Made by a program: the position numbers and the translations under genes
Assembly: GCF_029323795.1 (NCBI RefSeq)
Contig: NZ_CP119758.1
Location: 1,426,001 to 1,490,000 of the forward strand
Length of the DNA: 64,000 nt
Reading direction: 5' to 3'
Origin: Zobellia alginiliquefaciens
GTDB lineage: Bacteria; Bacteroidota; Bacteroidia; Flavobacteriales; Flavobacteriaceae
Notes under the pieces: model-generated
Seen by the model: only the letters and a program-made list of their open reading frames with translations
Told to the model about the DNA's origin: nothing
The model's database searches: none
Shown: piece by piece, positions 3,849 to 55,102 of the stretch
How the letters are laid out: every line of letters begins with the position of its first letter
Numbering within the stretch: position 1 is the stretch's first letter

Positions 3849-4979
3849 TTACTTTACTTCAAGCAATATAAATTGATTTAACTGTGGACCGAAAGCACTA
3901 AAGTTATTATCGGCCACTAAAACCAAAGAACGGTTGCCATTCGCTAGTTTGGGCCCAAAAGTGATTCCTTCAATATTGTCTACCACACCATCCGTTAATT
4001 GATTGCGAACGCTTTCAAAATCGAACAACAGTGTTTTGGTCGCTTTCTTGTATTCAGCATCCATAAGGCTATCCATACCACTTACATCCGTGGCACTAGA
4101 AGCATCAACATCATAGATTTTCACGTTATTACCACCATCGGCATAACCGGTAGAAAAAGAACGCTCCAACACCAAAAACCTATCCGTATCATATTCCAGT
4201 ATTTCAACAACACCGTTTACCGTAAATGAAGTTTCATCAAATTTTCTGGCAATCGGGTCCAGCTCATAAGCGAATTCTCTTCCAAAAGCACCGGAATCAT
4301 CTATATGGACAATCCGTACCGGCGAATCCGTATCTTCTACAATTGGCTCAGAACCATCTTGGGTAAGCGGTAATTCCATTGAAGCCCAGTACCCGTTTTT
4401 ATCATGTGCCACGCTAAGACCTTCAATAACTCCGTTATGTCTTGGTCCTCGGTTTTCATCAGTATCTACTTTAAATTTATTAGATATAGAAATGCTAGAT
4501 TTATAACTACCGTCCATATCCGCTATACAAACAAAAGGATCAACACCACCATTCACATTTCCTTCACTAGACCAAATTAAACCACCGCCGGGCGTAACCC
4601 TGATCGCTTCCGGATCTACTTCATTGTCCGCAAAAGGCAGATTGTTTCCGCTCAACAATTCAGTTACCCCATTAATGCTAATGTCTTTGAATCCGTTTTC
4701 ATCCAATTGAATATCGGCATTATAAAAACGGATAGGTGCTTTAGGGTCATCACTGATCATATACCATTTTCCGTCTGCATAATCTATTGCAGAAAGTCCA
4801 CCAACTTGGGTATCTGCATACATTGTGCCATCTGGCACTACAAATTCATCTACATATTCCAGACTAGAAATGCTGTTATTCTGTGCTCCGCCATGACCTA
4901 CAAAATCATCTAAATGCTCACATGATATGATTGTTGTGAGAATCATTAGCCCCACAATTTCTAAGGTAAAGTTTTTCAT
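3849..4979 (-). CDS. Esterase-like activity of phytase family lipoprotein
   Basis: A 376-residue exported protein. The N-terminus is a lipoprotein signal ending TTIISC, with Cys20 as the lipid-modified residue. The mature part has the repeated blade-like strands of the Phytase-like family (PF13449): GGLSAIDYADGKWYMISDD near residue 62, then DPEAIRVTPGGGLIWSSEG, GVIEGLSVAHDKNGYWASMELP, and a C-terminal DNIEGITFGPKLANGNRSLVLVADNN block. Related proteins are described as esterase-like or alkaline-phosphatase-linked, but the substrate of this one is unknown. A strong terminator follows it. Other phosphate-ester genes (5797-7155, 41879-42895) occur in the window. Confidence 0.8.
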   Translation of the reverse strand: MKNFTLEIVGLMILTTIISCEHLDDFVGHGGAQNNSISSLEYVDEFVVPDGTMYADTQVGGLSAIDYADGKWYMISDDPKAPIRFYNADIQLDENGFKDISINGVTELLSGNNLPFADNEVDPEAIRVTPGGGLIWSSEGNVNGGVDPFVCIADMDGSYKSSISISNKFKVDTDENRGPRHNGVIEGLSVAHDKNGYWASMELPLTQDGSEPIVEDTDSPVRIVHIDDSGAFGREFAYELDPIARKFDETSFTVNGVVEILEYDTDRFLVLERSFSTGYADGGNNVKIYDVDASSATDVSGMDSLMDAEYKKATKTLLFDFESVRNQLTDGVVDNIEGITFGPKLANGNRSLVLVADNNFSAFGPQLNQFILLEVK

Positions 4980-5147
4980 TTTTTAGGTGTTTTTTGGATT
5001 AGCAAGATGACTTATAGATTTCAGAAGAAGTTTAACTGTGGATTACGATTAGATTAACCTTGTATTACTTTGACAAACCCAATTCTCCAATATCCCTAAG
5101 CACACTAACCTTAATATTCATGTAACGTTAACTTGACTTTTTAAAAA

Positions 5148-5155
5148 TAAATTTG
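5148..5155 (+). promoter_or_regulatory. -7 promoter element (TAAATTTG) of the Crp/Fnr regulator gene
   Basis: The octamer fits TAnnTTTG and lies 32 bp before the start codon at 5188, leaving a short leader. Confidence 0.45.
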
Positions 5156-5187
5156 TGGATTTCGATAATGATATATGTTGATGAGCT

Positions 5188-5814
5188 ATGAAAAACATTC
5201 GTCCCCAATTACACAAGAAACATGAATTTTGCCTCTATGGCTATTTAAAAAATTCTGAAAACCCCAATTTTTCCACATCGATCAGAGAAGTCATTGTCTC
5301 TAAAAACGAGATTATTTACAAACCACCACTTGCTGATAATTATATGTACGAAGTAGTACAAGGAGTTGTTAAGTTAGGGGGCTATTCAGAAACTGGGGAA
5401 GAGAACACTTATGATGTTATTTACACTGGCGATTATTTTGGCAACTTAAAATACTTGAACGGTCAATTTTTTGAATTTTCAAAAACCTTGGTAGATAGTA
5501 AAATACGTATCTATGACTTGGCTTTTTTCAAAAAAACTATCATTGAAAACTCGGTTACTTCCGAATGGTTCATTGCTTATCTTTTAAAACGATGGTGTCT
5601 TGCCGAAAAAAAATTGGGTCAAGTAAACGAACGGTCCACTTTTCAAAAACTTGAATTTTTAAAGTCTCACTTTAACATTCCAGTGCATGACATTCACGGA
5701 GAAGAGCATATACTTTACAACTTGCTAACCCAAAAAGACAAGGGTGACCTTATTGGGGCCACCCGCCAAACTATTGCCAATGCACTGAAGAAAAAATCAG
5801 TTTTTGTTGGTTAA
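5188..5814 (+). CDS. Crp/Fnr family transcriptional regulator
   Basis: A 208-residue protein with an N-terminal cyclic-nucleotide-binding-like beta-roll (residues 30-110: KNEIIYKPPLADNYMYEVVQGVVKLGG, GDYFGNLKYL), a long dimerisation helix (125-160) and a C-terminal winged helix with the recognition helix GATRQTIANALKKK near residues 190-203. It lacks the Cys cluster of Fnr and the RSA phosphate-binding motif of E. coli Crp, so the ligand is unknown; it resembles the Bacteroidota branch of this family. It runs opposite to the phosphatase gene and their stop codons overlap by 18 bp. Confidence 0.85.
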   Translation: MKNIRPQLHKKHEFCLYGYLKNSENPNFSTSIREVIVSKNEIIYKPPLADNYMYEVVQGVVKLGGYSETGEENTYDVIYTGDYFGNLKYLNGQFFEFSKTLVDSKIRIYDLAFFKKTIIENSVTSEWFIAYLLKRWCLAEKKLGQVNERSTFQKLEFLKSHFNIPVHDIHGEEHILYNLLTQKDKGDLIGATRQTIANALKKKSVFVG

Positions 5815-7155
5815 GATTCCTGGGTAAAGTATGCCGTGCTTAGATTCAAAATTAAGTTGTAACAGTTCGCTAACTACTGGAGCAATGTCTTCCAACCCCA
5901 TTTTTTCTATTTTTTTACCCTTATAGACTCCAGCTCCAAAAGCAATAAAACCTGTTTCTATTTCTTTAAAATCAGGAAAAAAGCCATGGGTTCCTCCTCT
6001 TCTAGGCGAAAGAACTTCTCCATTTGTTCTGGATGACATGGCAATGCCCGGTATTGGGGCCAATGCAAGTACAGCATTGGGATCCGCGCCAATACCAACT
6101 AGCTCTTCTCTTTCTACAACCCTAAATAGTTTTTTAATAGACGCCGGCAATCCATTTAATTTGGCACGCACCTTGGCGACACTCTTTTTATCGTTTTTAT
6201 CCTTCAACATTAAAAATGCCGAGGCCCCAGATGTATGGAAAGCAGCTTTCCAGTTGCCTCGGTCTTTTTGGTCTTCCATTAAACCCTCTTCCACTAGCCA
6301 GATATTAGGGTTTAGAGCGGAGTGAATATCAACAAAGCCATGATCTCCTGTAATAATAAATGTAGTTTTATCGAGAATATCGGCCCTTTCCGCAGCTTCC
6401 ATTATTTTGCCAATGGCACGATCTACAGCTGCAATTGCAGTATAGACCTTTTCTCCGTCCCTACCTTGTTCATGTTGAAAATGATCGGTAGCTATTAAAT
6501 GTAGTGTCATTAAATTGGGTTTGTATTTCTCCAAAGTATAGGCCGCCATCTCACCGGTTCTATCTTCACGGTTTAAATAATCGCCATTAAAGGTTTTCTC
6601 GTTCAGTTTTCCCAGAACTTCTTCTTCCATTTCCTTTAAAAACCCTTTTGGGTTCTCTTTGGTCCGCATAGACTCTATTCGACTAACCTTACTGTTCAAC
6701 AACCAGTATTCAGGAATATTATAATCAATAGGAGCTCCTACAGATACCGGCCAAATAAAACTGGCACTTGTTTTTCCAGCACTTTTTACGGCGTGCCATA
6801 GAGTTTCTGTCTGGATAAGGCTACTTTCCCAATACCAGCGCCCTGTCTGTCCACCTTCTTCAAATGGGCTATTATAAAACACACCGTGTTCTGCAGGGTA
6901 CGCACCTGTTATTATTGTAGTATGCGACGGATAGGTAACTGAAGGAAACACCCCTCTTACTCCCATAGCGGCAGCACCCTCCCGAACCATCTTTTTTAGG
7001 TTTGGAGTAGGCCATTTATCCTCTAGGTAGAAATTAGGCCTAAAACCATCTACCGAAACCAAAACCACGTGTTGGGTCAAGCTCTCTTCTTGTGCCCTTC
7101 CATATTTCACAATGGTTATAATCAATACCAGTACTAAATAAAAATTCTTTTTCAT
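5797..7155 (-). CDS. Secreted nucleotide pyrophosphatase/phosphodiesterase-like alkaline phosphatase family protein
   Basis: A 452-residue protein with an N-terminal signal peptide (about 21 residues, ending GRAQ). The alkaline-phosphatase superfamily core is complete: the first metal site VLVSVDGFRPNF (Asp36), the nucleophile motif FPSVTYPSHTTIITG (Thr74), LHLIATDHFQHEQG for a second metal pair, ITGDHGFVDIH, and a distal GTHGFFPD histidine. Threonine as nucleophile and the HGVFYN pattern place it with the NPP/ENPP branch, which cleaves nucleotide or lipid phosphodiesters. It follows the Oar-type receptor gene by 80 bp on the same strand. Confidence 0.88.
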   Translation of the reverse strand: MKKNFYLVLVLIITIVKYGRAQEESLTQHVVLVSVDGFRPNFYLEDKWPTPNLKKMVREGAAAMGVRGVFPSVTYPSHTTIITGAYPAEHGVFYNSPFEEGGQTGRWYWESSLIQTETLWHAVKSAGKTSASFIWPVSVGAPIDYNIPEYWLLNSKVSRIESMRTKENPKGFLKEMEEEVLGKLNEKTFNGDYLNREDRTGEMAAYTLEKYKPNLMTLHLIATDHFQHEQGRDGEKVYTAIAAVDRAIGKIMEAAERADILDKTTFIITGDHGFVDIHSALNPNIWLVEEGLMEDQKDRGNWKAAFHTSGASAFLMLKDKNDKKSVAKVRAKLNGLPASIKKLFRVVEREELVGIGADPNAVLALAPIPGIAMSSRTNGEVLSPRRGGTHGFFPDFKEIETGFIAFGAGVYKGKKIEKMGLEDIAPVVSELLQLNFESKHGILYPGILTNKN

Positions 7156-7177
7156 GTCTTAAAATAGATTGTAAAAA

Positions 7178-7213
7178 CTAGAGGGGTCAAAACTTTTCTG
7201 ACTCCCCCTAGAT
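7178..7213 (-). terminator. Possible imperfect hairpin between receptor and phosphatase genes
   Basis: CTAGAGGGGTCA and TGACTCCCCCTAG flank a nine-base loop and can pair with one bulge. There is no clean T-run after it, so it could be an attenuator or a processing site rather than a full terminator. Confidence 0.3.
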
Positions 7214-7235
7214 TGAGAAAAAATAAAAAATTCGA

Positions 7236-10200
7236 TTAGTTGAATGTATATCGTGCACCTAACTGAAGCCTCCATGGTGTACCATTAATAGGTTCGGTAC
7301 CGGCACCCGTTTGAACGGAATAGTCATAAGCTTGGGCCGCTTGATCAAAGCCGTTAATACGCATAAAATCACGTCTTCTACCAAAATTATGGGTTCGGCC
7401 CCATTCTTTGTTCAGTAAATTAGCAAAGTTGAAAATGTCCACGGACAGCTCTAGACCCTGCTTTTTGTTTTTAGTTTCAAATCTTTTTTGAAGCCTTAGA
7501 TCAATAGTTGCTGCAAAAGGATTTTTTCCACCGTTTCGCTCTGCAAAACCACCGTAACTATTCCTCAAATACTCCTTGAAGTTTTCTGGGGTTTCCGGAT
7601 CGTTCAATATTTCATTGTACCCTTCAACAATAGACTGTGGTGTACTAGGGTCATTGGGGTCAAAAATATACGCTATATCGTTTCTTAGATTAAAATCTCC
7701 GTTAGCGCTCGCGTTATCATCCACATGCAAAGAATATCTCGTTCCTCCCTGACCGATTACCGTTGCCCCGAGTGTAAACCCTTTCCATGTAGGAGTAGCT
7801 CCATTCACCACCATTTTAGTATCAAAATGATTATCTGAATATCCATAGTTCAAATCTCTTGGATCTCCTTCCACAGGAATAAAGGTTGATGTATTGGCCA
7901 CACAACAGTTGTAGGACGAATTATCTTTTGACCGATTAAAGGTCATGCTCGCATTTAAGTATCCATCTTTTCCAATCTGGGCCGTACCTTCAATTACAAG
8001 AGCCAAATTATCTAAAACACCATCAGAAGTTAACACCAAAGTTCTACCCACTTGGTCTGAAATTCGGGAATTTGTCCAATCCGTTCCCCCATTTTCAGAA
8101 ATAGTATTGGCAGGAACAAAGACTTCCCTACCCAGAGGAGTAACAAAGAAGGGCTCCGCAACCAAGTTGGCTTCTTGATAAATGTAATTATTGCTCGTAT
8201 GGCTATAAAGCGCATTAAAACCAAGGCTATATCTCTCACCAAAGAAATGGGTGTAACTTAAGTTTGCCTTGTATATAGTGGGAACCTGAAAATCCTCACC
8301 TACCGCATTGATGGTTGAAAAAGGGGTAACGCCTGCTGGTACGCCCGGAACTGTGCTAGGGTCGTTACGGTAAGATTGGAAGTCCGGAACGGGAACATTT
8401 GCACCAGTAACATCTATAGCGCCCAACAAAGTACCACTATTCTGTATGTTATTTACCTGTGCATAATAATGAGGTTGAGAAGAAAAAATACCACCTCCTA
8501 ATTTAAAGATATCCGTATTCTTTCCTTTTAAATTATAAGTTAATTGAAACCTTGGCTGAATGTTATTGTAGTCATCCAACTTTTCATTGGTACGAATTCC
8601 TAGTTCATTAAACACCACAGGGTTGAACTCCGCCTCATCTAAAAACTTTGTAGCATCCCATCGCACACCCGCAACCAAGTTTAGGTCTGGTGTAATATCA
8701 GTTTCCAACTGAGCGAACAACGAAAGGTCTAAAACAGTCTGTTTAACAAGAGGGAGACCTTGCAGTGGTACTTCCCTAGCATAGCGTGAAGCTATTTGAT
8801 TTTCAAAATCATCTAACGAATCAAAGAAAAAACGACCATTTTGCTCGTTGGAAAGCAAAGTTTCCAAATTAGTGATCATGTTGTCCGTACCAAAAGTAAG
8901 ATTATACTTCCCTGCATTTACATACGTAGTGTTCGTAAACTGAATTTGGTTTTCCTGATTGGTTTCCGGAGTAAAACGCTGCCCGCCCAACTGCACACTC
9001 CTACTTCTTGTGTTTCCATTTGGCAAAACCGATGAAACCTCAACAATTGCTCTTGGAATATTGGATTGTGGAAGTTCGGAGTTGGGAGTAAAAGCGCGCT
9101 CTGCATGTTGGTACTGAAACTTAAACTCATTGGTAACCTTGGAGCTGAACATAGATCTTAGAGACAACATAATGCTGTTTTCCTGAGACTCAAAATCAGA
9201 ATAAGATTCAGCAACTTCAATATTAGAGTTATCGCTTACACTAAAAGGGCTCTCCCATTTGTTATATAAATTCCTAACCGTTAAACGATGCTTATCATTG
9301 ATCTGCCAATCCAGCCTAAGGAACAAGTTATTTGCTTCCGTTTCGCGATCAAACTGACCCACTTGCTGAGAATTGCTTAAACCATACACAGTACGACCTA
9401 TATTTAAAAAACGCTCTAAGTTAGACGATGTAATACCCAATCTATTTTCATCATCTTCGTTCTGAATTTCAGCAATACTCGTTGGCTCTCCGGCATCCTG
9501 TCTTTCAAAAACAGCAAAGAAATGCAGCTTATCCTTTACTATAGGTCCACCAATACTTAAACCATATTGCGAGTTATAAAAGTCAGCATCTCGCTCCTGT
9601 CCTTGAATGGTATACTTACTTTGTAATCCATCTGCACGATGATAGAAAAACGTACTTCCGCTAAACTCATTGGTCCCCGCTTTGGTCACTGCTGAAATTG
9701 AACCTCCTCCTTGTCTACCCTCCGTAACATTGTAATCATTGGTTGAAACCTCAAATTCTCGGATAGCCTCTTGTGAAATGGTGTAAGGACCCCGGCCAAT
9801 TTCACCCGCAGTTAAGGTATTTCTAGCATTTAGCCCGTCTATAGTAACATTAGTAGAAGTTCTACGTTGTCCGCCCAAATTAATACTTCCAGCTCCTTGT
9901 AACGGAGACAAACTGGTTAATCCGGTAAAGTTTCTACCTTCCGTAGCTAACTTTTTTATTTGTCCGGCACCAATTTTTGTTGAAGCTCCTATTTGCTCAA
10001 TTCTTTTATACAAACTGTTAGAAGAAACTACCACCTCATTTAGAGCAGTAGAAGATTCTTGCAAAACAAAATCTACCGAAAGTGCATCACCTAAATTTAA
10101 AGTAAAACCTTCTTGTTTTGCGTCGGCGAAGCCCAAGTACTTTGCCGTTATTTCATAAGGGCCTCCTAAGGGCAATTGTAATATTTTAAAAGTCCCATTT

Positions 10201-33730: not shown

Positions 33731-34042
33731 TTATTGCTCAATAGCGTTACCTTCTTCATCAACGATAAGTGCTCCTGAAGTACCATCTTCTAAAGAAACT
33801 TCCAATTTGTACTGGTTAGCTTCGTTTTTATGGGCCTTATTGATCGTTGCGCCTGGGTAGTTAGTTTCTACCATTGTAGTTACCGCTTCCGGAACTTCTT
33901 CTACGGCTACTTCTGAAAAAGCATCCTGATCTTGAGCTACGGTTTCAGTTGCTGCATCAACAGCTTCTGTTGCTTGCTCTTCTTGAGCAAATGCAGTTAA
34001 ACTTCCTAATGCGAATACTGATGTTATGAATAATTTTTTCAT
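33731..34042 (-). CDS. Small secreted PepSY-like protein, tandem copy 1
   Basis: A 103-residue protein with a signal peptide (MKKLFITSVFALGSLTAFAQ), an acidic Gln/Glu/Ala-rich segment (21-50) and a C-terminal domain, EEVPEAVTTMVETNYPGATINKAH then NQYKLEVSLEDGTSGALIVDEEGN, which fits the PepSY-like family (PF11396: predicted periplasmic binding or inhibitor fold). It differs from the next two copies at only two or three positions (for example AVEEVPEAV and a final IEQ). It is the promoter-distal member of a probable three-gene operon ending at a terminator. Function unknown. Confidence 0.85.
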   Translation of the reverse strand: MKKLFITSVFALGSLTAFAQEEQATEAVDAATETVAQDQDAFSEVAVEEVPEAVTTMVETNYPGATINKAHKNEANQYKLEVSLEDGTSGALIVDEEGNAIEQ

Positions 34043-34112
34043 GATATTATATTTTATATATGTGAATGATTAATAATGTTCTTGTAATTTGGGGGAAATC
34101 CTAAGCGAATTC

Positions 34113-34424
34113 TTATTGCTCTATAGCGTTACCTTCTTCATCAACGATAAGTGCTCCTGAAGTACCATCTTCTAAAGAAACTTCCAATTTGTACTGGTTA
34201 GCTTCGTTTTTATGGGCCTTATTGATCGTTGCGCCTGGGTAGTTCGTTTCTACCATTGTAGTTACCGCTTCCGGAACTTCTTCTAAAGCTACTTCTGAAA
34301 AAGCATCTTGTTCTTGAGCTACGGTTTCAGTTGCCGCATCAACAGCTTCTGTTGCTTGCTCCTCTTGAGCAAATGCAGTTAAACTTCCTAATGCGAATAC
34401 TGATGTGATAAATAATTTTTTCAT
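34113..34424 (-). CDS. Small secreted PepSY-like protein, tandem copy 2
   Basis: A 103-residue near-identical copy of the proteins on either side; it reads EQDAFSEVALEEVPEAV and ends IEQ. The signal peptide and the 25-residue acidic linker are the same. The 70-74 bp spacers between the copies are also similar to each other (for example both contain ATTTTATATATGT-like text and AATTCTTA before the stop), which shows a tandem duplication of about 382-386 bp units. There is no promoter-like element in the spacer, so it is probably transcribed from the promoter before copy 3. Confidence 0.85.
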   Translation of the reverse strand: MKKLFITSVFALGSLTAFAQEEQATEAVDAATETVAQEQDAFSEVALEEVPEAVTTMVETNYPGATINKAHKNEANQYKLEVSLEDGTSGALIVDEEGNAIEQ

Positions 34425-34498
34425 AATGTTCTATTTTTATATATGTATATAATTAATGGTAATGTAATTGTGTTTTGAGAGAACTCTTAAGTGAATTC

Positions 34499-34810
34499 TT
34501 ATTGGGTGATAGCGTTACCTTCTTCATCAACAATAAGCGCTCCTGAAGTACCATCTTCTAAAGAAACTTCCAATTTGTACTGGTTAGCTTCGTTTTTATG
34601 AGCTTTGTTGATCGTTGCGCCTGGGTAGTTAGTTTCTACCATTGTAGTTACCGCTTCCGGAACCTCTTCTAAAGCTACTTCTGAAAAAGCATCCTGATCT
34701 TGAGCTACGGTTTCAGTTGCCGCATCAACAGCTTCTGTTGCTTGCTCCTCTTGAGCAAATGCAGTTAAACTTCCTAATGCGAATACTGATGTGATAAATA
34801 ATTTTTTCAT
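34499..34810 (-). CDS. Small secreted PepSY-like protein, tandem copy 3
   Basis: A 103-residue near-identical copy, differing mainly in DQDAFSEVALEEVPEAV and the last residues ITQ. It is the first gene of the triplet in the direction of transcription. Its leader holds the conserved promoter elements: a TTGGTATCAT element at 34864-34874 and paired GTGTG repeats at 34938-34953, arranged as in front of the two other paralogues. Confidence 0.85.
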   Translation of the reverse strand: MKKLFITSVFALGSLTAFAQEEQATEAVDAATETVAQDQDAFSEVALEEVPEAVTTMVETNYPGATINKAHKNEANQYKLEVSLEDGTSGALIVDEEGNAITQ

Positions 34811-34863
34811 GTTATAAAGGTTTTATGTTTACTACTAATTGATTTCCCTTTGTATATAGAAAA

Positions 34864-34874
34864 TATGATACCAA
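34864..34874 (-). promoter_or_regulatory. -24/-12-like promoter of the PepSY-like triplet
   Basis: The minus strand reads TTGGTATCATATTTTCTA. TTGG-N10-TC matches the TTGGCAxx-N4-TTGC layout of sigma-54 promoters in the GG doublet and spacing, but the -12 GC is TC. The start codon is about 60 bp downstream of it. Confidence 0.45.
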
Positions 34875-34912
34875 TATTCAACTCCCAAATCAATCAACTA
34901 TAAATCAACTAC

Positions 34913-34953
34913 TTACAAATAAACCTGATTTTAAAAAGTGTGTATTAGTGTGA
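34913..34953 (-). promoter_or_regulatory. Conserved upstream activator elements of the PepSY-like triplet
   Basis: On the plus strand TTACAAATAAA lies 41 bp from the -24-like GG, and GTGTGTA and GTGTGAA, ten bases apart, begin 66 bp from it. The same three elements at the same distances (41 and 66) occur before the gene at 35491-35796. They look like paired activator sites. Confidence 0.5.
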
Positions 34954-35084
34954 AATTCTATTTTATTTGGGTAATAATTTCACAGATATCACTTTACACA
35001 ATACAATTCTGAGTTTTAAAATCGGAACCCATCCTTACACTCTCTCATCTCCCTTATTATACAGATGAACTGTATTTCTACAAA

Positions 35085-35260
35085 TGAAAAAATCCGGTCG
35101 AATATATTCGCCGGAACGTGGTTCTTTTTTAATAAAGCTGAGTCATATTTTTTTTACTTCCAGAGGTTCAATCTATATTAACTAATAAGCCACCTCCCTT
35201 TGAAGAAATTTGAGCTATGAGGATGAATTGATTTTAAAAAGTAATATTATTTCATCACGC
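35085..35260 (-). ncRNA. Candidate small RNA between PepSY-like genes
   Basis: On the minus strand a TAAATTTG -7 element (35261-35268) lies about 150 bp before a hairpin of TCCGG-CGAATATATTCG-CCGGA with one bulge (35093-35115) followed by TTTTTTC, a typical intrinsic terminator. No reading frame of useful length lies between (the first ATG is followed by AAA-TAA). The gene before it on this strand, 35491-35796, already has its own terminator. The extents are predictions; no family was recognised and no -33 element is clear. Confidence 0.35.
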
Positions 35261-35421
35261 CAAATTTATTGTCCCATATTATGTTTGTTAGAATGCGACA
35301 CCCGTAAATCTTAAACATTCTATTCGCTTTAATACATTTCAAATCAGTTTATAGATTAAAAACAGCATACATTTCTTGCTATATGTTCTAAGTTAGTGAG
35401 AAACGTAACCTATATAAATAT

Positions 35422-35451
35422 AGAAAGGGGCTGCAGATGCAACCCCTTTCT
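35422..35451 (-). terminator. Terminator of the fourth PepSY-like gene
   Basis: AGAAAGGGG and CCCCTTTCT form a 9-bp stem, with TGCA/TGCA pairing inside the loop. It lies 40 bp after the gene's stop codon. Confidence 0.75.
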
Positions 35452-35490
35452 GACCAAACCAACTTGATACAAAACAAATAACTCAAGTTA

Positions 35491-35796
35491 TTACATTTCA
35501 ATCCAGTTACCATTTTCGTCTGCATATAAAGTACCAGCAGTACCATCTTCTAGAGATACTTCTAATTTATACTGATTTGCTTCATTTGCGTATGCTTTAT
35601 CTATTGATGCAGTAGGGTAGTTTTTAGAAACCGCTGCAGTTACCGCTTCTGGTAATTCACTAGCTGCTACCTCAGAAAAATTATCTTGTGTGGCTTCTGC
35701 CTCTGTTGCTGTTGCTTCAACTGCTGTTGCTTCTTCTTGAGCAAAAGCTGAAAGACTTCCTATTGCGAAAATTGCGGTGATAAATATTTTCTTCAT
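35491..35796 (-). CDS. Small secreted PepSY-like protein, paralogue 4
   Basis: A 101-residue paralogue of the triplet with a related signal peptide (MKKIFITAIFAIGSLSAFAQ), a shorter acidic linker rich in Ala, Glu and Thr, and a conserved domain SELPEAVTAAVSKNYPTASIDKAY, NQYKLEVSLEDGTAGTLYADENGNW. It is more diverged than copies 1-3, so its duplication is older. It has its own terminator and its own promoter with the shared elements. Confidence 0.83.
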   Translation of the reverse strand: MKKIFITAIFAIGSLSAFAQEEATAVEATATEAEATQDNFSEVAASELPEAVTAAVSKNYPTASIDKAYANEANQYKLEVSLEDGTAGTLYADENGNWIEM

Positions 35797-35840
35797 AATC
35801 GTTTTCTTTATTTTAAATATTCTGATTAGTGTATAGAAAT

Positions 35841-35851
35841 AATGATACCAA
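35841..35851 (-). promoter_or_regulatory. -24/-12-like promoter of the fourth PepSY-like gene
   Basis: The minus strand reads TTGGTATCATTATTTCTA, nearly the same as in front of the triplet. The start codon is about 50 bp downstream. Confidence 0.45.
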
Positions 35852-35889
35852 AAACCGAATTGAATTGTAAATAGTTGACAAATAGTATT

Positions 35890-35931
35890 TTACAAATAAA
35901 AGCAAGTTTTAAAAGTGTGTAATTGTGTGTA
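35890..35931 (-). promoter_or_regulatory. Conserved upstream activator elements of the fourth PepSY-like gene
   Basis: TTACAAATAAA (35890-35900) is 41 bp and GTGTGTA (35915) is 66 bp from the -24-like GG; a second GTGTGTA follows ten bases later (35925). The spacing is identical to that before the triplet. Confidence 0.5.
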
Positions 35932-36096
35932 TTTATATTGATTATTGTGTAAAATATATACGAACTCGGTCTTGACACGTTCTATAGATATAGGCGAGAA
36001 TTCTAAATACAACAAAACCAAGATTCCAGAGTTGCTTAGAGAATAAGAAACCGTGAGTTACTATTTTCAATTTAGATTGATTGTAGCCTAAACTCA

Positions 36097-36130
36097 AAAA
36101 TGCCCATCCTCAAATGAGGATGGGCATTTT
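36097..36130 (-). terminator. Terminator of the fifth PepSY-like gene
   Basis: AAAATGCCCATCCTC and GAGGATGGGCATTTT form a perfect 15-bp stem around a 4-base loop, one of the strongest terminators in the window. Confidence 0.88.
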
Positions 36131-36164
36131 CTACTAACTTTTTTAACTGTAAGCTATACTAAGC

Positions 36165-36473
36165 TTATTTTTCAATCCAGTTACCTTCGGCATCAGCATA
36201 TAATTCAGCTGTTTCACCATCTTCTTTAGCAACCTCTAACTTATACTCAGCTTCGTCGTTCATATAAGCTTGAGAAATAGTAGCTCCAGGGTGAGCAGCT
36301 TCTAAAGCATCGGAGATAGCAGCAGGTACTTCCTCAGCAGCTATTTCAGTATAGTTATCTTGAGTAGCCTCAACTTGTTCAGTTGCTACTTCTTCTACAG
36401 TTGTTTCTTCTTCTTGAGCGAAAGCAGTCATTGTACCTAAAGACAATACTGCAGCAAACATTAAATTTTTCAT
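36165..36473 (-). CDS. Small secreted PepSY-like protein, paralogue 5
   Basis: A 102-residue member with signal peptide MKNLMFAAVLSLGTMTAFAQ, an acidic linker (EEETTVEEVATEQVEATQDNY) and domain AEEVPAAISDALEAAHPGATISQAY, AEYKLEVAKEDGETAELYADAEGNW. It is the most diverged of the five. A promoter with a TTGGCATCAT element and GTGTGTA repeats precedes it, so all five seem to belong to one regulon. Confidence 0.82.
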   Translation of the reverse strand: MKNLMFAAVLSLGTMTAFAQEEETTVEEVATEQVEATQDNYTEIAAEEVPAAISDALEAAHPGATISQAYMNDEAEYKLEVAKEDGETAELYADAEGNWIEK

Positions 36474-41878: not shown

Positions 41879-42895
41879 TTATTCCATTCCTAACTTTCCC
41901 AAATCATAGAAGTAGAAATTCTTTTCATCGTTCATAGCAACGAAGAGACCGTTCTTAAAAGTCGCGTTCAACGGTACTGTTACAACCTCGCAGCCATCGG
42001 TTTCCAATGTCGAAAGATTAACAGCTTTGATAAACGCGTTCGTTTTTCTTGAATAAATATTGAACTGTCCCTTTTGTTGGTCAGACACAATTATATACCC
42101 TTCTCCATTGGTGTAGCTTGCTATGGCAATACCTTCAATATCACTTTTAAAATCATCGCCGCCAAAACAGCTGAGTTCTTCATTGCCCATTTCTGGCTCC
42201 GCATAGTATTTTCGTATGCAATGCTGTTCATCCGAATAATAAACAAAACCAAGTTCACTATCAACGGCTATGGCTTCTATTTCCTTTTTTCCACTGAATT
42301 TTCCGAATTCTCGAACCAATTCAATCTCTACGCTCCCATTTTGTTTAACTACCAACTTATATTGATGTAAATACCCTTCGGCAGGCCCTACTTTACGCCC
42401 TACAATGGCATACATACTTTCATCCTTAGGTGATTTATACAAGCTAATACCCATGGGGAGTTTCATTTCAGGGTCTTTCTCATCAATGAAAACAGGAAAA
42501 CCGCCGTTATCCAAAGGTGTCATATCCGGCACTGAAAATAAGCGAATCTGACTTCGCTCACGTTCGGCAAACATTAAAACATCAACGGTAGTAGAGTCGT
42601 TTATAACCAAACCATAGGCCACATCAATATTATTGGGCCGTTGTATGTTTCTAATCGTTTTTTCCTCAATGATTTTACCGTCGAGGTCAAACGCGTAAAT
42701 AGCACCGTTCGTTTCCTTATCCGTACCAAATACTATACTCTTTGATGCATCTGAGGGATTGACCCAAATAGCGGGATCGTCCGTGTCATTTATTGTTTTC
42801 TCGGTAATTATATTGGGAGCTATAGCCGGCAGCTTGCTGGTCTTACATGACTGGATAACCAACAGAATGATAAAAAGGGATAGTAATTTTTTCAT
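41879..42895 (-). CDS. Beta-propeller phytase lipoprotein
   Basis: A 338-residue exported 3-phytase-type protein. It has a lipoprotein signal ending QSC (Cys17), and a six-bladed propeller region with DDPAIWVNPSDASKSIVFGTDKETNGAIYAFDLDGK near residue 39, GMTPLDNGGFPVF-type loops, EAIAVDSELGFVYYSDEQHCIRKYYAEP and DIEGIAIASYTNGEGYIIVSDQ, the acidic calcium-binding repeats of BPP phytases. It releases phosphate from phytate. It follows the TonB receptor gene by 58 bp. Confidence 0.86.
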   Translation of the reverse strand: MKKLLSLFIILLVIQSCKTSKLPAIAPNIITEKTINDTDDPAIWVNPSDASKSIVFGTDKETNGAIYAFDLDGKIIEEKTIRNIQRPNNIDVAYGLVINDSTTVDVLMFAERERSQIRLFSVPDMTPLDNGGFPVFIDEKDPEMKLPMGISLYKSPKDESMYAIVGRKVGPAEGYLHQYKLVVKQNGSVEIELVREFGKFSGKKEIEAIAVDSELGFVYYSDEQHCIRKYYAEPEMGNEELSCFGGDDFKSDIEGIAIASYTNGEGYIIVSDQQKGQFNIYSRKTNAFIKAVNLSTLETDGCEVVTVPLNATFKNGLFVAMNDEKNFYFYDLGKLGME

Positions 42896-42953: not shown

Positions 42954-45818
42954 TTACTTTTTAAAAAGGTCATATTTGAGGCCAAATGTCAATCGCCTAC
43001 CATAAAATTCAACCTGCTGCGTACGGTCTTTTACACTCTGAAAATAACGAAGTGGCTGATTGGTTATATTATTTAAATCCGCATATACACTCAAGCTATT
43101 GGTAATCTTAAAACTTGCATTAAAATCTAAGAAAAGTTGAGTATCATAATATCGGTCTTCAAATTCATTACCCCCTAGCTCATCAATATAAGAATCGGAA
43201 AAATTAGAAGACAAACGGGCGGAGAATTTCTGGTCATTATAGCCTAACGACGCATTAAATGTATTGGGAGTCGTATTTGGCAAATCTACATCTTCGCGGT
43301 CTTCACCGTCTTCATTCTTTATACCATCCGCAGTAGAGGATATGAAAGTATAATTTAGATAAAGGCTAAAATTACGAGCAAATCCAGGCAGAAAATCCAA
43401 TTGCCGTTGAAAAGCGAACTCAGCCCCAAAAATACGCGCACCATCACCGTTCAGAGGTTGAAAAATCTCAAACCCTTCAGTATCTTCCCCATAAAAATCA
43501 TCTGTAGCCTCATCCCTGGAGAGGTATATAAAATTATCTATATTCTTATAGAAAAGCCCGCCAGACAGAATACCTACACTTTGGAAATAATGCTCCGCCA
43601 TTAGGTCAAAATTCATAGATGTAGTCGCCTCCAAATCTGGATTTCCCAAATAGATTTCCTCATCGCCAGAAACAACATCTAGAGAGGGCACCAAGTCTTC
43701 ATAATTTGGCCTAGCCAAAGTATTTGTCCATGCAAAACGTAGAATGGTCTCATCGTTAAGATTATATTTTAGATGAAGACCAGGCATAAAATTGGTGTAT
43801 GAACTTTCCTCTTTTAATTCACCTATTAGATCTTCTTCATCAATAATACTGTTACCCACGGCCGTTACCTTTGTAGTCTCTAAACGGAGACCAAAGAGAA
43901 GATTCAATTTATCCGTGATTTTTTGGTTGGTCATCGCATAAGCGGCATAAACATTTTCATCTACATTGAAATTCGCCCGTAAAAACTCGTCCGGTACAGA
44001 TTCACCGTTTACCAAGTTCAAGCCCCCAAGCCATTCTTCATCAGCGAAAGGTCCTGCCAAATACTGGCTGCCAGCAAGGAAGTCGGAATCAGAAAGGTCT
44101 CGGACGGTCACATCTGCCAAGGTGGGGAAATCATCTTCCAAGTCATACTCAAAAAAATCATTATCTCTTAGCTTTGTTTTAATTCTAGCCCTACCTCCAA
44201 ACTTTATGGAACCATCTCCATTACCAAAAAAATCAGAAGGTATTTCAAAATTCACAAACACATTAAAATCCTCTTCTTTGGTATATTGGTTTTCTTCAGT
44301 AACCTCATCATATTCAAAGTTTGACAAAGCAGCATCATTATTATTAACGGCAGTCATGAGCGGGTACCTAGAATTGGTATTATCATTGATAACTTCATAT
44401 TCGTTGGCAAAAACGATATATCTCTCATTCAAACGTTCTTCGGAAGCCTTTGCAAAAGAAGTCATCCAATCCATTTTTAGGGCACCCCATAAATGGTTAC
44501 CACCTAGACTGTAATTTTGCATTCGCTGGTCTTCCAAACGTCTATTTTTATTTCGGTTACTATCAATACCACCTTTTGTTTCTCTGGTAATTTCCGCTGG
44601 AAAACGGGTCAAACTACCATTGTTAACCATAAAATCTCCCAACTCAATATCTTCTCCATCCAATATTTCACTCTGCAATGCAAATCGGTTTTCACGATCA
44701 TCGCGCCAGTTATAAATGGTTTTAAGAAAAATGGAATTGTTGGCATCAAAACGGTAGTCAAAATTAGCCGAAACACTGCGCCTAATACGTTGTACCAAAT
44801 ATTCCCGTTGCTCAAAAACACTCGTGTAAGGATCAACATCCACTTCCTCTAAAATTGGCTCTCCTTCACCGTCATCTTCACCTGTGTAGTATTCAAATTC
44901 ATCAGACCACTCGGCTTCTACGTTATCTGACCCGAAGTCATTGTCGTTGTATGACGCGCTCGCCATCCATCCGAATTTACCATTAGTGCTTCTGTCTCCT
45001 ATTAGAAAAGAGCCATTAATGATAGCTTTATCCGTAATGAAATTAATACCTGAACCCAATGTAGACGAAAGTCTAAACCCTTGTGGAGAAGTTCTAGTCA
45101 CAAGATTTACCGAACCACCAAGGGCATCCGCATCCATATCTGGAGTAACCGCTTTACTCACTTCTATACTCTGAATCATATCTGCGGGAATCAAATCCAT
45201 CTGCACGTTTCTGTTATCGCCTTCGGCTGATGGCACACGACTACCATTTAAGGAAACCGAATTTAACTGAGGAGACAGTCCGCGTACAATTATATTTCTA
45301 GCTTCCCCTTGATCCACTTGCATGGTTATTCCCGGAATACGTTTTACAGCATCACCAATATTAGCATCCGGAAACTTTCCGATTTGATCAGTGGCAACCA
45401 CGTTGGTTATATTCATATTGGTCTTTTGGGTGTTCAGCGCTCTGGATTGACTTCCTAGACCGTACCCTCTTACTTCCACTCCGTCTAACTCTAAAGTTTT
45501 TGGAGTTATAAAAATGGAAACCGATGTTGTTTCCTTTTCCTTTACGGAAACCTCTTGTGAAATATCTGCGTAACCTAAATATGAAATGCTCAAAGTGTAA
45601 TTCCCGGCCGGAATACCTACTAAAGAAAAGCGACCATCAAAGTCCGAGATAGCACCTTTATTAAGCGTGGTTATAATGACATTGGCCCCTGGAACGTTAA
45701 TTCCGTTTTCATCGGAAATTGTCCCCTCTACATTACCCTGCTGAGCAGATAAGGCCGTACTAAAGCAGGCAACAAACAGCAATAAAGCTAAAAATTTGAA
45801 TGCGTTTCTATAATTCAT
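42954..45818 (-). CDS. TonB-dependent receptor linked to phytase
   Basis: About 954 residues from the ATG at 45818 (MNYRNAFKFLALLLF); an upstream ATG at 45860 would precede the likely transcription start. It has a signal peptide ending ALSAQ, a CarboxypepD-reg domain (VEGTISDENGINVPGANVIITT), a plug domain (RALNTQKTNMNITNVVATDQIGKFPDANIGDAVKRIPGITMQVDQGEARNIIVRGL), and a barrel ending RLTFGLKYDLFKK. There is no SusD-like neighbour. It is probably the uptake partner of the phytase product or substrate. Confidence 0.9.
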   Translation of the reverse strand: MNYRNAFKFLALLLFVACFSTALSAQQGNVEGTISDENGINVPGANVIITTLNKGAISDFDGRFSLVGIPAGNYTLSISYLGYADISQEVSVKEKETTSVSIFITPKTLELDGVEVRGYGLGSQSRALNTQKTNMNITNVVATDQIGKFPDANIGDAVKRIPGITMQVDQGEARNIIVRGLSPQLNSVSLNGSRVPSAEGDNRNVQMDLIPADMIQSIEVSKAVTPDMDADALGGSVNLVTRTSPQGFRLSSTLGSGINFITDKAIINGSFLIGDRSTNGKFGWMASASYNDNDFGSDNVEAEWSDEFEYYTGEDDGEGEPILEEVDVDPYTSVFEQREYLVQRIRRSVSANFDYRFDANNSIFLKTIYNWRDDRENRFALQSEILDGEDIELGDFMVNNGSLTRFPAEITRETKGGIDSNRNKNRRLEDQRMQNYSLGGNHLWGALKMDWMTSFAKASEERLNERYIVFANEYEVINDNTNSRYPLMTAVNNNDAALSNFEYDEVTEENQYTKEEDFNVFVNFEIPSDFFGNGDGSIKFGGRARIKTKLRDNDFFEYDLEDDFPTLADVTVRDLSDSDFLAGSQYLAGPFADEEWLGGLNLVNGESVPDEFLRANFNVDENVYAAYAMTNQKITDKLNLLFGLRLETTKVTAVGNSIIDEEDLIGELKEESSYTNFMPGLHLKYNLNDETILRFAWTNTLARPNYEDLVPSLDVVSGDEEIYLGNPDLEATTSMNFDLMAEHYFQSVGILSGGLFYKNIDNFIYLSRDEATDDFYGEDTEGFEIFQPLNGDGARIFGAEFAFQRQLDFLPGFARNFSLYLNYTFISSTADGIKNEDGEDREDVDLPNTTPNTFNASLGYNDQKFSARLSSNFSDSYIDELGGNEFEDRYYDTQLFLDFNASFKITNSLSVYADLNNITNQPLRYFQSVKDRTQQVEFYGRRLTFGLKYDLFKK

Positions 45819-45838
45819 TTTGATTGGTTTTATACCTC

Positions 45839-45846
45839 CAAAAATA
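45839..45846 (-). promoter_or_regulatory. -7 promoter element (TATTTTTG) of the phytase-linked receptor
   Basis: The minus-strand octamer fits TAnnTTTG and lies 20 bp before the preferred start codon at 45818, which also argues against the upstream ATG at 45860. A 22-bp direct repeat lies directly upstream. Confidence 0.5.
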
Positions 45847-45878
45847 TGTATATCAATCACATAGAGCGTTTCATAAAA

Positions 45879-45932
45879 GGAAACAAATAGGCAACATTAA
45901 AAGAAACGAGGGAAACAAGAAGGCAACATTAA
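45879..45932. repeat. 22-bp direct repeat, spaced 32 bp, candidate activator operator
   Basis: Two copies of GGAAACAAnnAGGCAACATTAA (45879-45900 and 45911-45932) match at 20 of 22 positions and start 32 bp apart, three helical turns. They lie about 35-90 bp upstream of the receptor's -7 element and directly downstream of the regulator gene, so they look like a dimer or tetramer binding site for it. Confidence 0.7.
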
Positions 45933-45972
45933 TATTAAGTTTACCTTGAACTTACCTAGCCGAAACACCTAT

Positions 45973-47550
45973 CTAAAAACCCGTTAAAAAAGTGCTCAAT
46001 TCTTCTTTTGCTCCTATAGGCAGTTTTTTACGCAAACGATATCTGGACACACGAACACTATCTGGTGTAAGCCGTAAAATTGCAGCAATTTCTTTAGAGG
46101 ATAAATTCAATCGTAGCAAAACACTTAAACGCAATTCTGCAGGTGACAACGAACATAACGCCTTAGTATTGAGCAGTTCAATATACTCTGGATGAATCTC
46201 ATTGAAAAAAGCCATAAACTCATCCCATTCATGCTCTTGCGATAAATTAAAATCGATTTCCTTGATCACCGTATTCAATTTCCTTTTTAAATCTACGTTG
46301 GATCGCACCAGGCTGTTTCTCAAAGTTTGAGAAAGGTCCGAAAGCATTTTATTCTTTTGGGCCAAGTGCAAGCTGTACCGCGATAATGCTGAGTTTTTTA
46401 GATGTACTTCTTTCTGTAAATTCGCTTCCTCGGTCTTCTTATTTTCTAACTCTACCTCTAGAATACGCTTTTCATAACTGGCCAGTTTTTGACCTTCCTT
46501 GCGTTTTCTTCGCAAAAACAAAAACCAGACAAAACCAATTACAGCCAATGCAACTAATGCACATACCAACACATACTTTTGAGCATCATCTATTTCGCCT
46601 TCGTGCAAGAGCTCCTTTATTTTCGCCTCCTTTTCTTTGGTATCATAAATTACCTGTAACGCACTAGCCTGATTAGCCCTATACCGTGCTTTATTTAGCT
46701 CGTCAATTTCTAAAAAGGTCAATAATTCTTGGTAAGCTCGGTCTTCATTGCCTATGAAATGGTATGTTTTTGACAAATCTTTATGAGCACTCGCCAGCTC
46801 CTCCGCATCATTGATCTGCTGGGCTATATGCAAAGACTGTTGGGTAAAATGCAGCCCCCTTTCAAACTCCCCCGTTTTCCTATAAACATCGCCCAAGTTA
46901 TTCAAGATATTGGCTTGTGCCTTATCCGGTGTAGTATGGTACTTCAAAGCTGTTTCAAAATAACTGCGTGCTAATCCAAAATCTTCCAAATCTTCATAAA
47001 TACTCCCAATGTTTTCGTTTACTAGAGAAACTCCATCTATATCGTCTAACTTCAAATACAGCTTAAGACTCTCTTTTTGATAATCTAGAGCTTTATCATA
47101 GTCGCCTTCTTTTTCGTAACAGGCACCCAAGTTACTTTTAGCTAAGGCAACTGCAGTATGGGCCTCTATTTTCTTTGCTTCTTGGATACACTTGTCAAAA
47201 TGGATTATTGCAGATTCATAGTTCTTTAGCTCCATATGAATGGCTCCCAGGCGATTGATAAGATTTACATATAAGGTATCGGGACCCTTCTTTTCCAATA
47301 AGATGATAGCCTTATTAAATTGATCTAAAGCCTCTGTATAGACCCCCGTTTTTTGACAGAAATAACCCAATTCTGCGCGTGCGAGTGCTATATTTTTGGT
47401 GTTCCCCGTTTCTTTCTCCGCTTTAAGCTTTTGATTTAAGTCGGCATAGGTAGCATTAATAATGACTTGACCTGAATATTGACACAGGGACAAAAAAGGA
47501 ATAATTAGAAAACCTAAAAGAAAGAGTATAGTTCTGATTTTGTGACTCAT
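45973..47550 (-). CDS. TPR-repeat transcriptional regulator with LuxR-type helix-turn-helix
   Basis: About 525 residues from ATG 47550. After an N-terminal signal/anchor segment (SHKIRTILFLLGFLIIPFLSLCQ) there are six to seven TPR repeats (about residues 35-300), a transmembrane segment (VLVCALVALAVIGFVWFLFL), a coiled coil and a LuxR-type HTH: CSLSPAELRLSVLLRLNLSSKEIAAILRLTPDSVRVSRYRLRKKL. The topology (extracytoplasmic TPR, cytoplasmic HTH) is typical of Bacteroidota regulators of nutrient uptake loci. It is adjacent to the phytase receptor gene, its likely target. Confidence 0.86.
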   Translation of the reverse strand: MSHKIRTILFLLGFLIIPFLSLCQYSGQVIINATYADLNQKLKAEKETGNTKNIALARAELGYFCQKTGVYTEALDQFNKAIILLEKKGPDTLYVNLINRLGAIHMELKNYESAIIHFDKCIQEAKKIEAHTAVALAKSNLGACYEKEGDYDKALDYQKESLKLYLKLDDIDGVSLVNENIGSIYEDLEDFGLARSYFETALKYHTTPDKAQANILNNLGDVYRKTGEFERGLHFTQQSLHIAQQINDAEELASAHKDLSKTYHFIGNEDRAYQELLTFLEIDELNKARYRANQASALQVIYDTKEKEAKIKELLHEGEIDDAQKYVLVCALVALAVIGFVWFLFLRRKRKEGQKLASYEKRILEVELENKKTEEANLQKEVHLKNSALSRYSLHLAQKNKMLSDLSQTLRNSLVRSNVDLKRKLNTVIKEIDFNLSQEHEWDEFMAFFNEIHPEYIELLNTKALCSLSPAELRLSVLLRLNLSSKEIAAILRLTPDSVRVSRYRLRKKLPIGAKEELSTFLTGF

Positions 47551-47635
47551 AACAAGCAAAAGAATTTTGCAAGTTACTATGCTAACCTTGTAATTATATT
47601 ACCTAAACATTAACTTAACGTATAAATAAAGCACA

Positions 47636-54163: not shown

Positions 54164-54577
54164 ATGAAAAATATAGTTGTACTAATTACATTTGCCATTG
54201 CTACCCTAACTTTCTCATGCAATAACAAAGCAGATAACACTCAAATGAAAACCGTTATGGCCGTTCATGACGAGGTAATGCCAGAAATGAGCAAAATGGG
54301 CAAATTGGTAGGCGATCTTAGCGCCAAAGAAAATGATAGTACAGAGGTTGGCTTACAATACAAAGAGGCTCGAAAAGATTTACAGGCAGCCCATAAATCT
54401 ATGATGGATTGGATGCAAAATTTTGGTAGTCGCTTTACTTCAGATGAGATTCTTAACGGCGCAGAACTTTCAGAAGAAAAGCAGGTTTGGCTCAATGAAG
54501 AGGAAGAAAAAGTTGAAAAATTACGCGAGCAAATAAACGAAAGCATCAAAACCGCCGAAGATTTATTACAGGAGTAA
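54164..54577 (+). CDS. Small helical lipoprotein, paralogue A
   Basis: A 137-residue protein with a lipoprotein signal ending TFSC (Cys19). The mature part is helical and acidic: VMAVHDEVMPEMSKMGKLVGDL, YKEARKDLQAAHKSMMDWMQNFGSRFTSDEI, EEKQVWLNEEEEKVEKLREQINESIKTAEDLLQE. A conserved helical pattern with a His (HDEVMPEM) and an aromatic-rich centre (DWMQNFG) repeats in the next gene. No family was recognised. It is the membrane-attached member of a tandem pair. Confidence 0.7.
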   Translation: MKNIVVLITFAIATLTFSCNNKADNTQMKTVMAVHDEVMPEMSKMGKLVGDLSAKENDSTEVGLQYKEARKDLQAAHKSMMDWMQNFGSRFTSDEILNGAELSEEKQVWLNEEEEKVEKLREQINESIKTAEDLLQE

Positions 54578-54688: not shown

Positions 54689-55102
54689 ATGAAGAATTTA
54701 TTTTTAATACTGGCCACAGTTTTGGTTTTAGGAACCACTAATGCGCAAGATACCGCAACAGAACCCACCAAAATGGAAAAAGTCATGGAATCTCATGATG
54801 TGGTGATGGACAAAATGCCCACTATTTCCAAACTAATAAATCAGCTTCAGACTAAAGCGAACGCTTCCTACAAGAAGAAAAAGTACGAAGATGCCATCGC
54901 GGACCTTAAAAATGCCAACCAATCCATGAGGACATGGATGGAAAATTTTGGTAAGCGTTTTGATGCGGACGAAATGCTAAAAGGCAAAGCACTAACTCCC
55001 AAAAAACAAGAATGGCTACTTGAAGAGGAAGAAAATGTTGCTCAATTAGATGAAGAAATAGATTTAAGTATAGCCCAAGCAAACGCTGTTCTAAACAACT
55101 AA
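54689..55102 (+). CDS. Small helical secreted protein, paralogue B
   Basis: A 137-residue paralogue of the preceding gene: HDVVMDKMPTISKLINQL, KYEDAIADLKNANQSMRTWMENFGKRFDADEMLKGKAL, KKQEWLLEEEENVAQLDEEIDLSIAQANAVL. It has a normal signal peptide ending TNAQ and no lipobox, so one copy should be membrane-anchored and the other soluble. Both keep the HD-x-VM, WM-x-NFG and EW/VWL-x-EEE positions. Function unknown. Confidence 0.7.
   Translation: MKNLFLILATVLVLGTTNAQDTATEPTKMEKVMESHDVVMDKMPTISKLINQLQTKANASYKKKKYEDAIADLKNANQSMRTWMENFGKRFDADEMLKGKALTPKKQEWLLEEEENVAQLDEEIDLSIAQANAVLNN

Follow-up and report, generated by a model that had tools for sequence, protein, structure and literature searches.

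Which protein acts on the direct repeats that precede a phytase receptor gene in Zobellia alginiliquefaciens, and what do these repeats do? They lie in a 154-bp intergenic region of the window, i.e. the whole 64-kb stretch of DNA that was analysed. A first-pass annotation had placed them between the gene of a TPR/LuxR regulator and its presumed target, and the flanking genes agree with this, since the regulator gene lies upstream and a TonB-dependent receptor gene downstream:

45973..47550, minus strand: TPR-LuxR regulator gene, 525 aa if translated from ATG, with TTG at 47559 as an alternative start
42954..45818, minus strand: TonB-dependent receptor gene, the presumed target
41879..42895, minus strand: beta-propeller phytase gene (Pfam Phytase), presumed to be co-transcribed

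Based on sequence comparisons, we consider it probable that the repeats form a heptamer array that is the operator of the adjacent TPR-LuxR regulator and from which receptor and phytase are activated.

Several other genes of the window were also recorded. Five consecutive ORFs of 101-103 aa (33731-36473, minus strand) gave weak PepSY_like matches (19.9-24.5 bits, cut-off 28.3) and form a tandem family. Two adjoining 137-aa ORFs are located at 54164-54577 and 54689-55102, of which the first gave no match and the second matched the type VI secretion protein TssO below threshold (24.1 bits against a cut-off of 29.2). Ribosomal protein L21 (48032-48676, minus strand) carries a C-terminal extension with a helix-hairpin-helix match.

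Results

Unit and geometry of the repeats

Two 22-bp copies, copy 1 at 45879-45900 (GGAAACAAATAGGCAACATTAA) and copy 2 at 45911-45932 (GGAAACAAGAAGGCAACATTAA), are identical at 20 of 22 positions and lie 32 bp apart from start to start, which bears out the direct repeat described before. The best chance pair in 2000 dinucleotide shuffles of the intergenic region was 17/22 (22-mers, offsets 22-80), and no other pair of at least 20/22 at these offsets was detected in the 64-kb window. The distance to the -7 element, formerly given as about 33 bp, is 32 bp when measured from the nearer copy. The 22-bp copies are real, but the true unit is finer and consists of heptamers in an 11-bp direct repeat. 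On the minus strand, which is the strand of all three genes, each 22-mer is composed of two 11-bp units (TTAATGTTGCC / TNNTTGTTTCC), and the pattern on the coding strand is TGTTGCC-N4-TGTTTCC with the heptamers 4 bp apart. Two such pairs, about three helical turns from each other, are present:

45911..45928, minus strand: distal heptamer pair, TGTTGCC at 45922-45928 and TGTTTCC at 45911-45917, near -94 and -83 relative to the predicted start
45879..45896, minus strand: proximal heptamer pair, TGTTGCC at 45890-45896 and TGTTTCC at 45879-45885, about -62 and -51

A lag of 11 was the top autocorrelation peak in 41 orthologous promoters with a regulator gene (Z 13.4; loci in receptor-first order, near-copies removed), and it was also seen in 28 promoters without the regulator (Z 6.1). 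The 32-bp step of the window is 33 bp in many relatives. The best-kept element of the array is the first heptamer of the distal pair.

Position of the array in the promoter

Two further elements frame the array:

45940..45956, minus strand: PHO-box-like module GGTAAGTTCAAGGTAAA, one mismatch to the GTTA-N7-GTAAA of relatives, 27 bp before the distal TGTTGCC
45839..45846, minus strand: -7 element TATTTTTG (TAnnTTTG), 82 bp after the first heptamer

With the -7 box placed at -12 to -5, following the promoter description in PMC9723704, transcription is predicted to start near 45834, with a leader of about 16 nt. Of the two Bacteroidota sigma-A promoter elements, the -7 box TAnnTTTG is present and the -33 TTG is not. 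Among related promoters, with L015-L017 left out, a TTG at -33 was found in 7 of 44, which is not above chance (about 6.4 expected). Heptamers upstream of the -7 box together with a -33 TTG no more frequent than by chance suit an activator site, or dependence of the promoter on an activator.

The same layout recurs in relatives. For these counts, 51 distinct regulator-bearing loci with a heptamer were used, and the Zobellia near-copies L015-L017 were left out. TAnnTTTG was found in 45 of the 51, starting 83 bp after the heptamer in 35, 82 bp in nine and 72 bp in one, so that the spacing is 82 or 83 bp in 44/45 of this first locus set. Further TGTT units cluster 33/44 or 32/43 bp after TGTTGC[CT]. 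An exact GTTA-N7-GTAAA lies upstream in 31/51 loci and always 27 bp before TGTTGC (31/31). The consensus was built from 47 of 54 anchored loci, near-copies dropped, and its TGTTGC[CT] anchor columns are invariant by construction. When the loci with a regulator were considered irrespective of the heptamer, again without L015-L017, GTTA-N7-GTAAA was present in 31/53 (0.2 in shuffles), and it also occurred in 6/19 Flavobacteriaceae loci without the regulator (0.05 in shuffles). Since this motif is found with and without the regulator and the TGTTGC heptamer only with it, the promoter contains two modules.

Occurrence of the heptamer with and without the regulator gene

The first-pass annotation had proposed an activator-binding site for the TPR-LuxR class, and had named lack of conservation before orthologous receptors as one of the outcomes that would refute it. 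We therefore compared 84 orthologous-receptor loci, four obtained through a genus search and 80 from named genomes (L016 and L018 apparently represent one genome). A regulator homolog is located upstream on the same strand in 56 of them and absent in 28, several of which are draft genomes or metagenome bins, with little upstream DNA in L070 and L095-L097. TGTTGC[CT] was found within 200 bp in 54/56 loci with the regulator and in 0/28 without it; in reversed sequences the counts were 2/56 and 0/28. The site TGTTGCC-N4-TGTTTCC at no more than 2 mismatches within 300 bp upstream gave 35/56 and 0/28. In Algoriphagus and Echinicola, where the order is regulator-phytase-receptor, the heptamer precedes the phytase gene in 5/7 loci; two Algoriphagus loci (L088 and L094) have the regulator without a heptamer. 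The proposal of an activator site for the TPR-LuxR class is supported by this co-occurrence with the regulator. The location before the -7 box fits it as well, as does a -33 TTG that is no commoner than by chance.

On a quick receptor tree (81 rows, with long-branch warnings; L015-L017 left out), at least 12 changes of the regulator label are required. In nine independent tree pairs on well-supported branches, heptamer presence agreed with the regulator in 8.6 on average, opposed it in 0 and showed no difference in 0.4 (median p 0.004). A site located between regulator and receptor genes could be gained and lost with the regulator through physical linkage. Linkage alone is argued against because the GTTA module, which shares this linkage, is kept in some regulator-less loci. 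A search of the 28 genomes lacking the neighbouring regulator returned no match better than E 4e-34, with matches at E <= 1e-25 in 9/28, and this ceiling is about the level of the best paralog in the genome of the window (5e-36).

Some of these loci showed peculiarities of their own. Five regulator-less Maribacter loci (L023, L024, L025, L043 and L078) carry other 11-bp repeats, of the CTTAAAATAG-CTTAA type, closer to the receptor gene. In L064 (Galbibacter orientalis), the receptor match at 4001-7852 is about 1 kb longer than elsewhere, and the gene seems interrupted or extended. The receptors of L095 and L097, from bins titled Spirosoma fluviale, are nested among those of Algoriphagus in the quick tree, and these bin labels look doubtful.

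A second locus set was assembled through the regulator. Among 299 family genomes, 32 gave a match at E <= 1e-40, of which 29 were examined besides the genome of the window; the two weakest of the 32 yielded no locus. L116 of this set is the Z. uliginosa genome of the first set, and the sets may overlap further. The phytase receptor gene lies directly downstream of the regulator in 29/29 loci, TGTTGC[CT] is present in 29/29 (one in the reversed control), and the distance from the heptamer to the start of TAnnTTTG is 82 or 83 bp in 29/29, with regulator identities down to about 37%. The full heptamer pair at no more than 2 mismatches was found in 9/29, and an exact GTTA-N7-GTAAA in 10/29 (27 bp before the heptamer in nine and 16 bp in one). 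The constant features of the array are its first heptamer and its spacing; the second heptamer drifts.

This constancy also bears on the view that the sequence is kept because it belongs to the 3' end of the regulator gene or to an RNA element transcribed from the intergenic region. In the examined loci, the element does follow directly on the regulator gene. However, its units are direct and not inverted repeats, the predicted leader is very short, and the distance to the -7 box is kept (44/45 and 29/29) down to about 37% regulator identity; we regard this explanation as very improbable.

The regulator protein

At E <= 0.001, Pfam assigned TPR families only; the TPRs are clear and no ATPase domain was found at this threshold. 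On the last 91 residues, two HTH families scored below their thresholds, GerE with 22.2 bits against 23.5 and Sigma70_r4_2 with 22.4 bits against 25.7. An AlphaFold2 model built with 33 aligned orthologs (mean pLDDT 87.1, pTM 0.60) contains an N-terminal helix, paired TPR helices up to about residue 266, a very long helix from 269 to 414 and C-terminal helices with an HTH. By eye, the sequence looks signal-like at its N terminus and is hydrophobic near residues 325-350. Sequence and model together suggest that the TPRs are periplasmic, that a helix spans the membrane and that the HTH lies with a coiled coil in the cytoplasm, and the protein is probably anchored in the inner membrane. Among the 50 matches listed by a Foldseek search against the PDB were TPR proteins such as LGN and kinesin light chain, and none of the 50 informs the DNA-binding end; comparison of the last 91 residues with PDB sequences gave nothing significant (best E 0.057, EL222).

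One residue of the recognition helix varies together with the site. Among 53 regulators (L015-L017 left out, ancestry ignored), the site at no more than 2 mismatches accompanied 30/37 proteins with a V-type residue and 2/16 with an I-type residue.

Possible phosphate control and binding by PhoB

In Flavobacterium johnsoniae, phosphate depletion induces the phytase and its receptor, as reported in PMC8115612. The main rival to the regulator is PhoB or another OmpR-family response regulator that binds the whole array, with the TPR-LuxR protein acting indirectly or elsewhere. In addition to the induction by phosphate depletion, several points favour such a protein on the heptamers. SARP proteins, whose DNA-binding domain is of the OmpR type, bind heptamers with 4-bp spacers, and heptamers at an 11-bp pitch are typical of winged-helix activators in the account of PMC5930380. 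The 11-bp periodicity persists without the regulator, as shown above, and the genome of the window has a phoBR-like pair (L223). Its PhoB candidate scored 210 bits with the PhoB model, the best of its list and under the cut-off of 296.2. A histidine kinase gene adjoins it, and the locus also has a divergent gene with a TonB receptor gene behind it.

Other observations speak against PhoB on the heptamers. TGTTGC[CT] is absent from all 28 regulator-less promoters, the heptamer pair was found in 0/10 pstS promoters (best 4 mismatches), the promoter stretch of L223 has GTTA-type repeats and lacks TGTTGCC, and the array was found at the phytase receptor promoter alone in this genome. Binding of PhoB or a relative to the whole array is thus unlikely in our view. 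A relaxed form of the GTTA module was present in 4/10 pstS promoters (genes assumed to start at the first ATG in the longest frame; pstS was used in place of PhoX promoters). Tentatively, we regard PhoB as the binder of the GTTA module and the TPR-LuxR protein as that of the heptamers.

Two guides to PhoB sites were discarded. PhoX promoters gave mixed matches and uninformative upstream regions, and the relaxed GTTA pattern is not diagnostic, as it was also found near an RprY-like pair (L221) and inside a gene. In the genome of the window no PhoX match and one sub-cut-off PstS-type match were detected, despite the phoBR-like pair.

Search for further targets

The motif search elsewhere, recommended by the first-pass annotation, located the array at one promoter of this genome and revealed no wider regulon. 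The exact pair has 26 matches in 22 of the 299 family genomes (one match with the reversed pattern), and the phytase promoter accounts for four of these, spread over three genomes. The remaining 22 fall mostly in reading frames: 20 overlap an ORF of 120 aa or more, with eight of the 20 in a single conserved gene of about 541 aa, whereas L205 and L213 do not; a wider regulon or a global box was rejected on the ground of these 20/22. TGTTGCY-N75/76-TAnnTTTG matched twice in the genome of the window (control one), and one match is the promoter under study. It could be argued that another, unlinked transcription factor binds the heptamers. This is improbable, as heptamer presence tracks the adjacent regulator gene and a second target in this genome was not found.

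Next to the TPR paralogs L111-L114 of the same genome, lag 11 was not among the best lags, which is uninformative on the operators of paralogs.

Discussion

In this study, the 22-bp repeats were resolved into an operator-type array with rigid geometry that appears to be tied to a dedicated regulator, which is a stronger statement than the original one. Assuming that the TPR-LuxR protein binds the array, it is tempting to speculate on the course of regulation. The regulator, probably anchored in the inner membrane, might use its TPRs to sense phytate, an inositol phosphate or a cue from the envelope. As an oligomer it could then bind head to tail along the heptamers and recruit RNA polymerase, leading to transcription of the receptor and phytase genes. 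The upstream GTTA-N7-GTAAA, as a probable PhoB-type box, would add control by phosphate starvation, and the promoter would receive two inputs, the regulator signal and phosphate starvation. The complete version, in which a membrane-anchored, one-component TPR-LuxR protein that serves a single operon reads, while tethered to the inner membrane, a head-to-tail array with the 11-bp pitch otherwise usual for winged-helix proteins, at a rigidly spaced composite promoter shared with PhoB, and expression requires both low phosphate and a substrate or envelope signal, is possible and put forward only tentatively.

Potentially, these results have a wider meaning. They suggest that marine Flavobacteriaceae control phytase expression through two combined inputs, phosphate and another that is dedicated to it. 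No operator assigned to a TPR-LuxR regulator of Bacteroidota was found in the literature (openly licensed PMC papers), and the array provides a base-level candidate that could show how this class contacts DNA. The class is worth understanding because some weaker paralogs of the regulator in the same genome adjoin SusC-like genes, as judged by eye.

Comparison with known systems

The regulator resembles the BT3442 family (NF053779), which residues 45-517 match with E 2.6e-14. However, the match reaches 52.9 bits and the family cut-off is 940, so that membership was rejected. The one paper found to mention BT3442 deals with the structure of a MACPF protein.

Direct repeats at an 11-bp pitch are common to the heptamer array and to PhoB promoters. 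The Bacillus PHO box has the form TTAACA-N5-TTAACA, which the GTTA-N7-GTAAA module resembles. The gene class served by this promoter is, in addition, the one induced by phosphate depletion in F. johnsoniae (PMC8115612). In contrast, pairs of TGTTGCC and TGTTTCC are present in 0/10 pstS promoters and in 0/28 regulator-less phytase promoters.

The operators of SARP-LAL regulators such as PimR of Streptomyces are described in PMC5930380 as 22-nt boxes with two heptameric direct repeats and 4-nt spacers, and this 22-nt layout of heptamer pairs is shared by the array studied here. The binder there is an OmpR-like winged-helix domain, whereas the candidate here has a LuxR/sigma-region-4-like HTH.

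MalT of E. coli has a LuxR-type DNA-binding domain, and the MalT boxes include direct repeats. As summarized in PMC4381067, MalT combines a TPR-like sensor with a DNA-binding domain; it acts as a multimer, which occupies several boxes in a cooperative manner and recruits RNA polymerase. The regulator of this study has clear TPRs and a putative DNA-binding domain, an HTH that scores below the cut-offs of both GerE and Sigma70_r4_2. It does not qualify as a MalT-type activator with a STAND ATPase domain, given that only TPR families were found at E <= 0.001. MalT is a cytoplasmic STAND ATPase, whereas for the protein described here sequence and model suggest a membrane helix.
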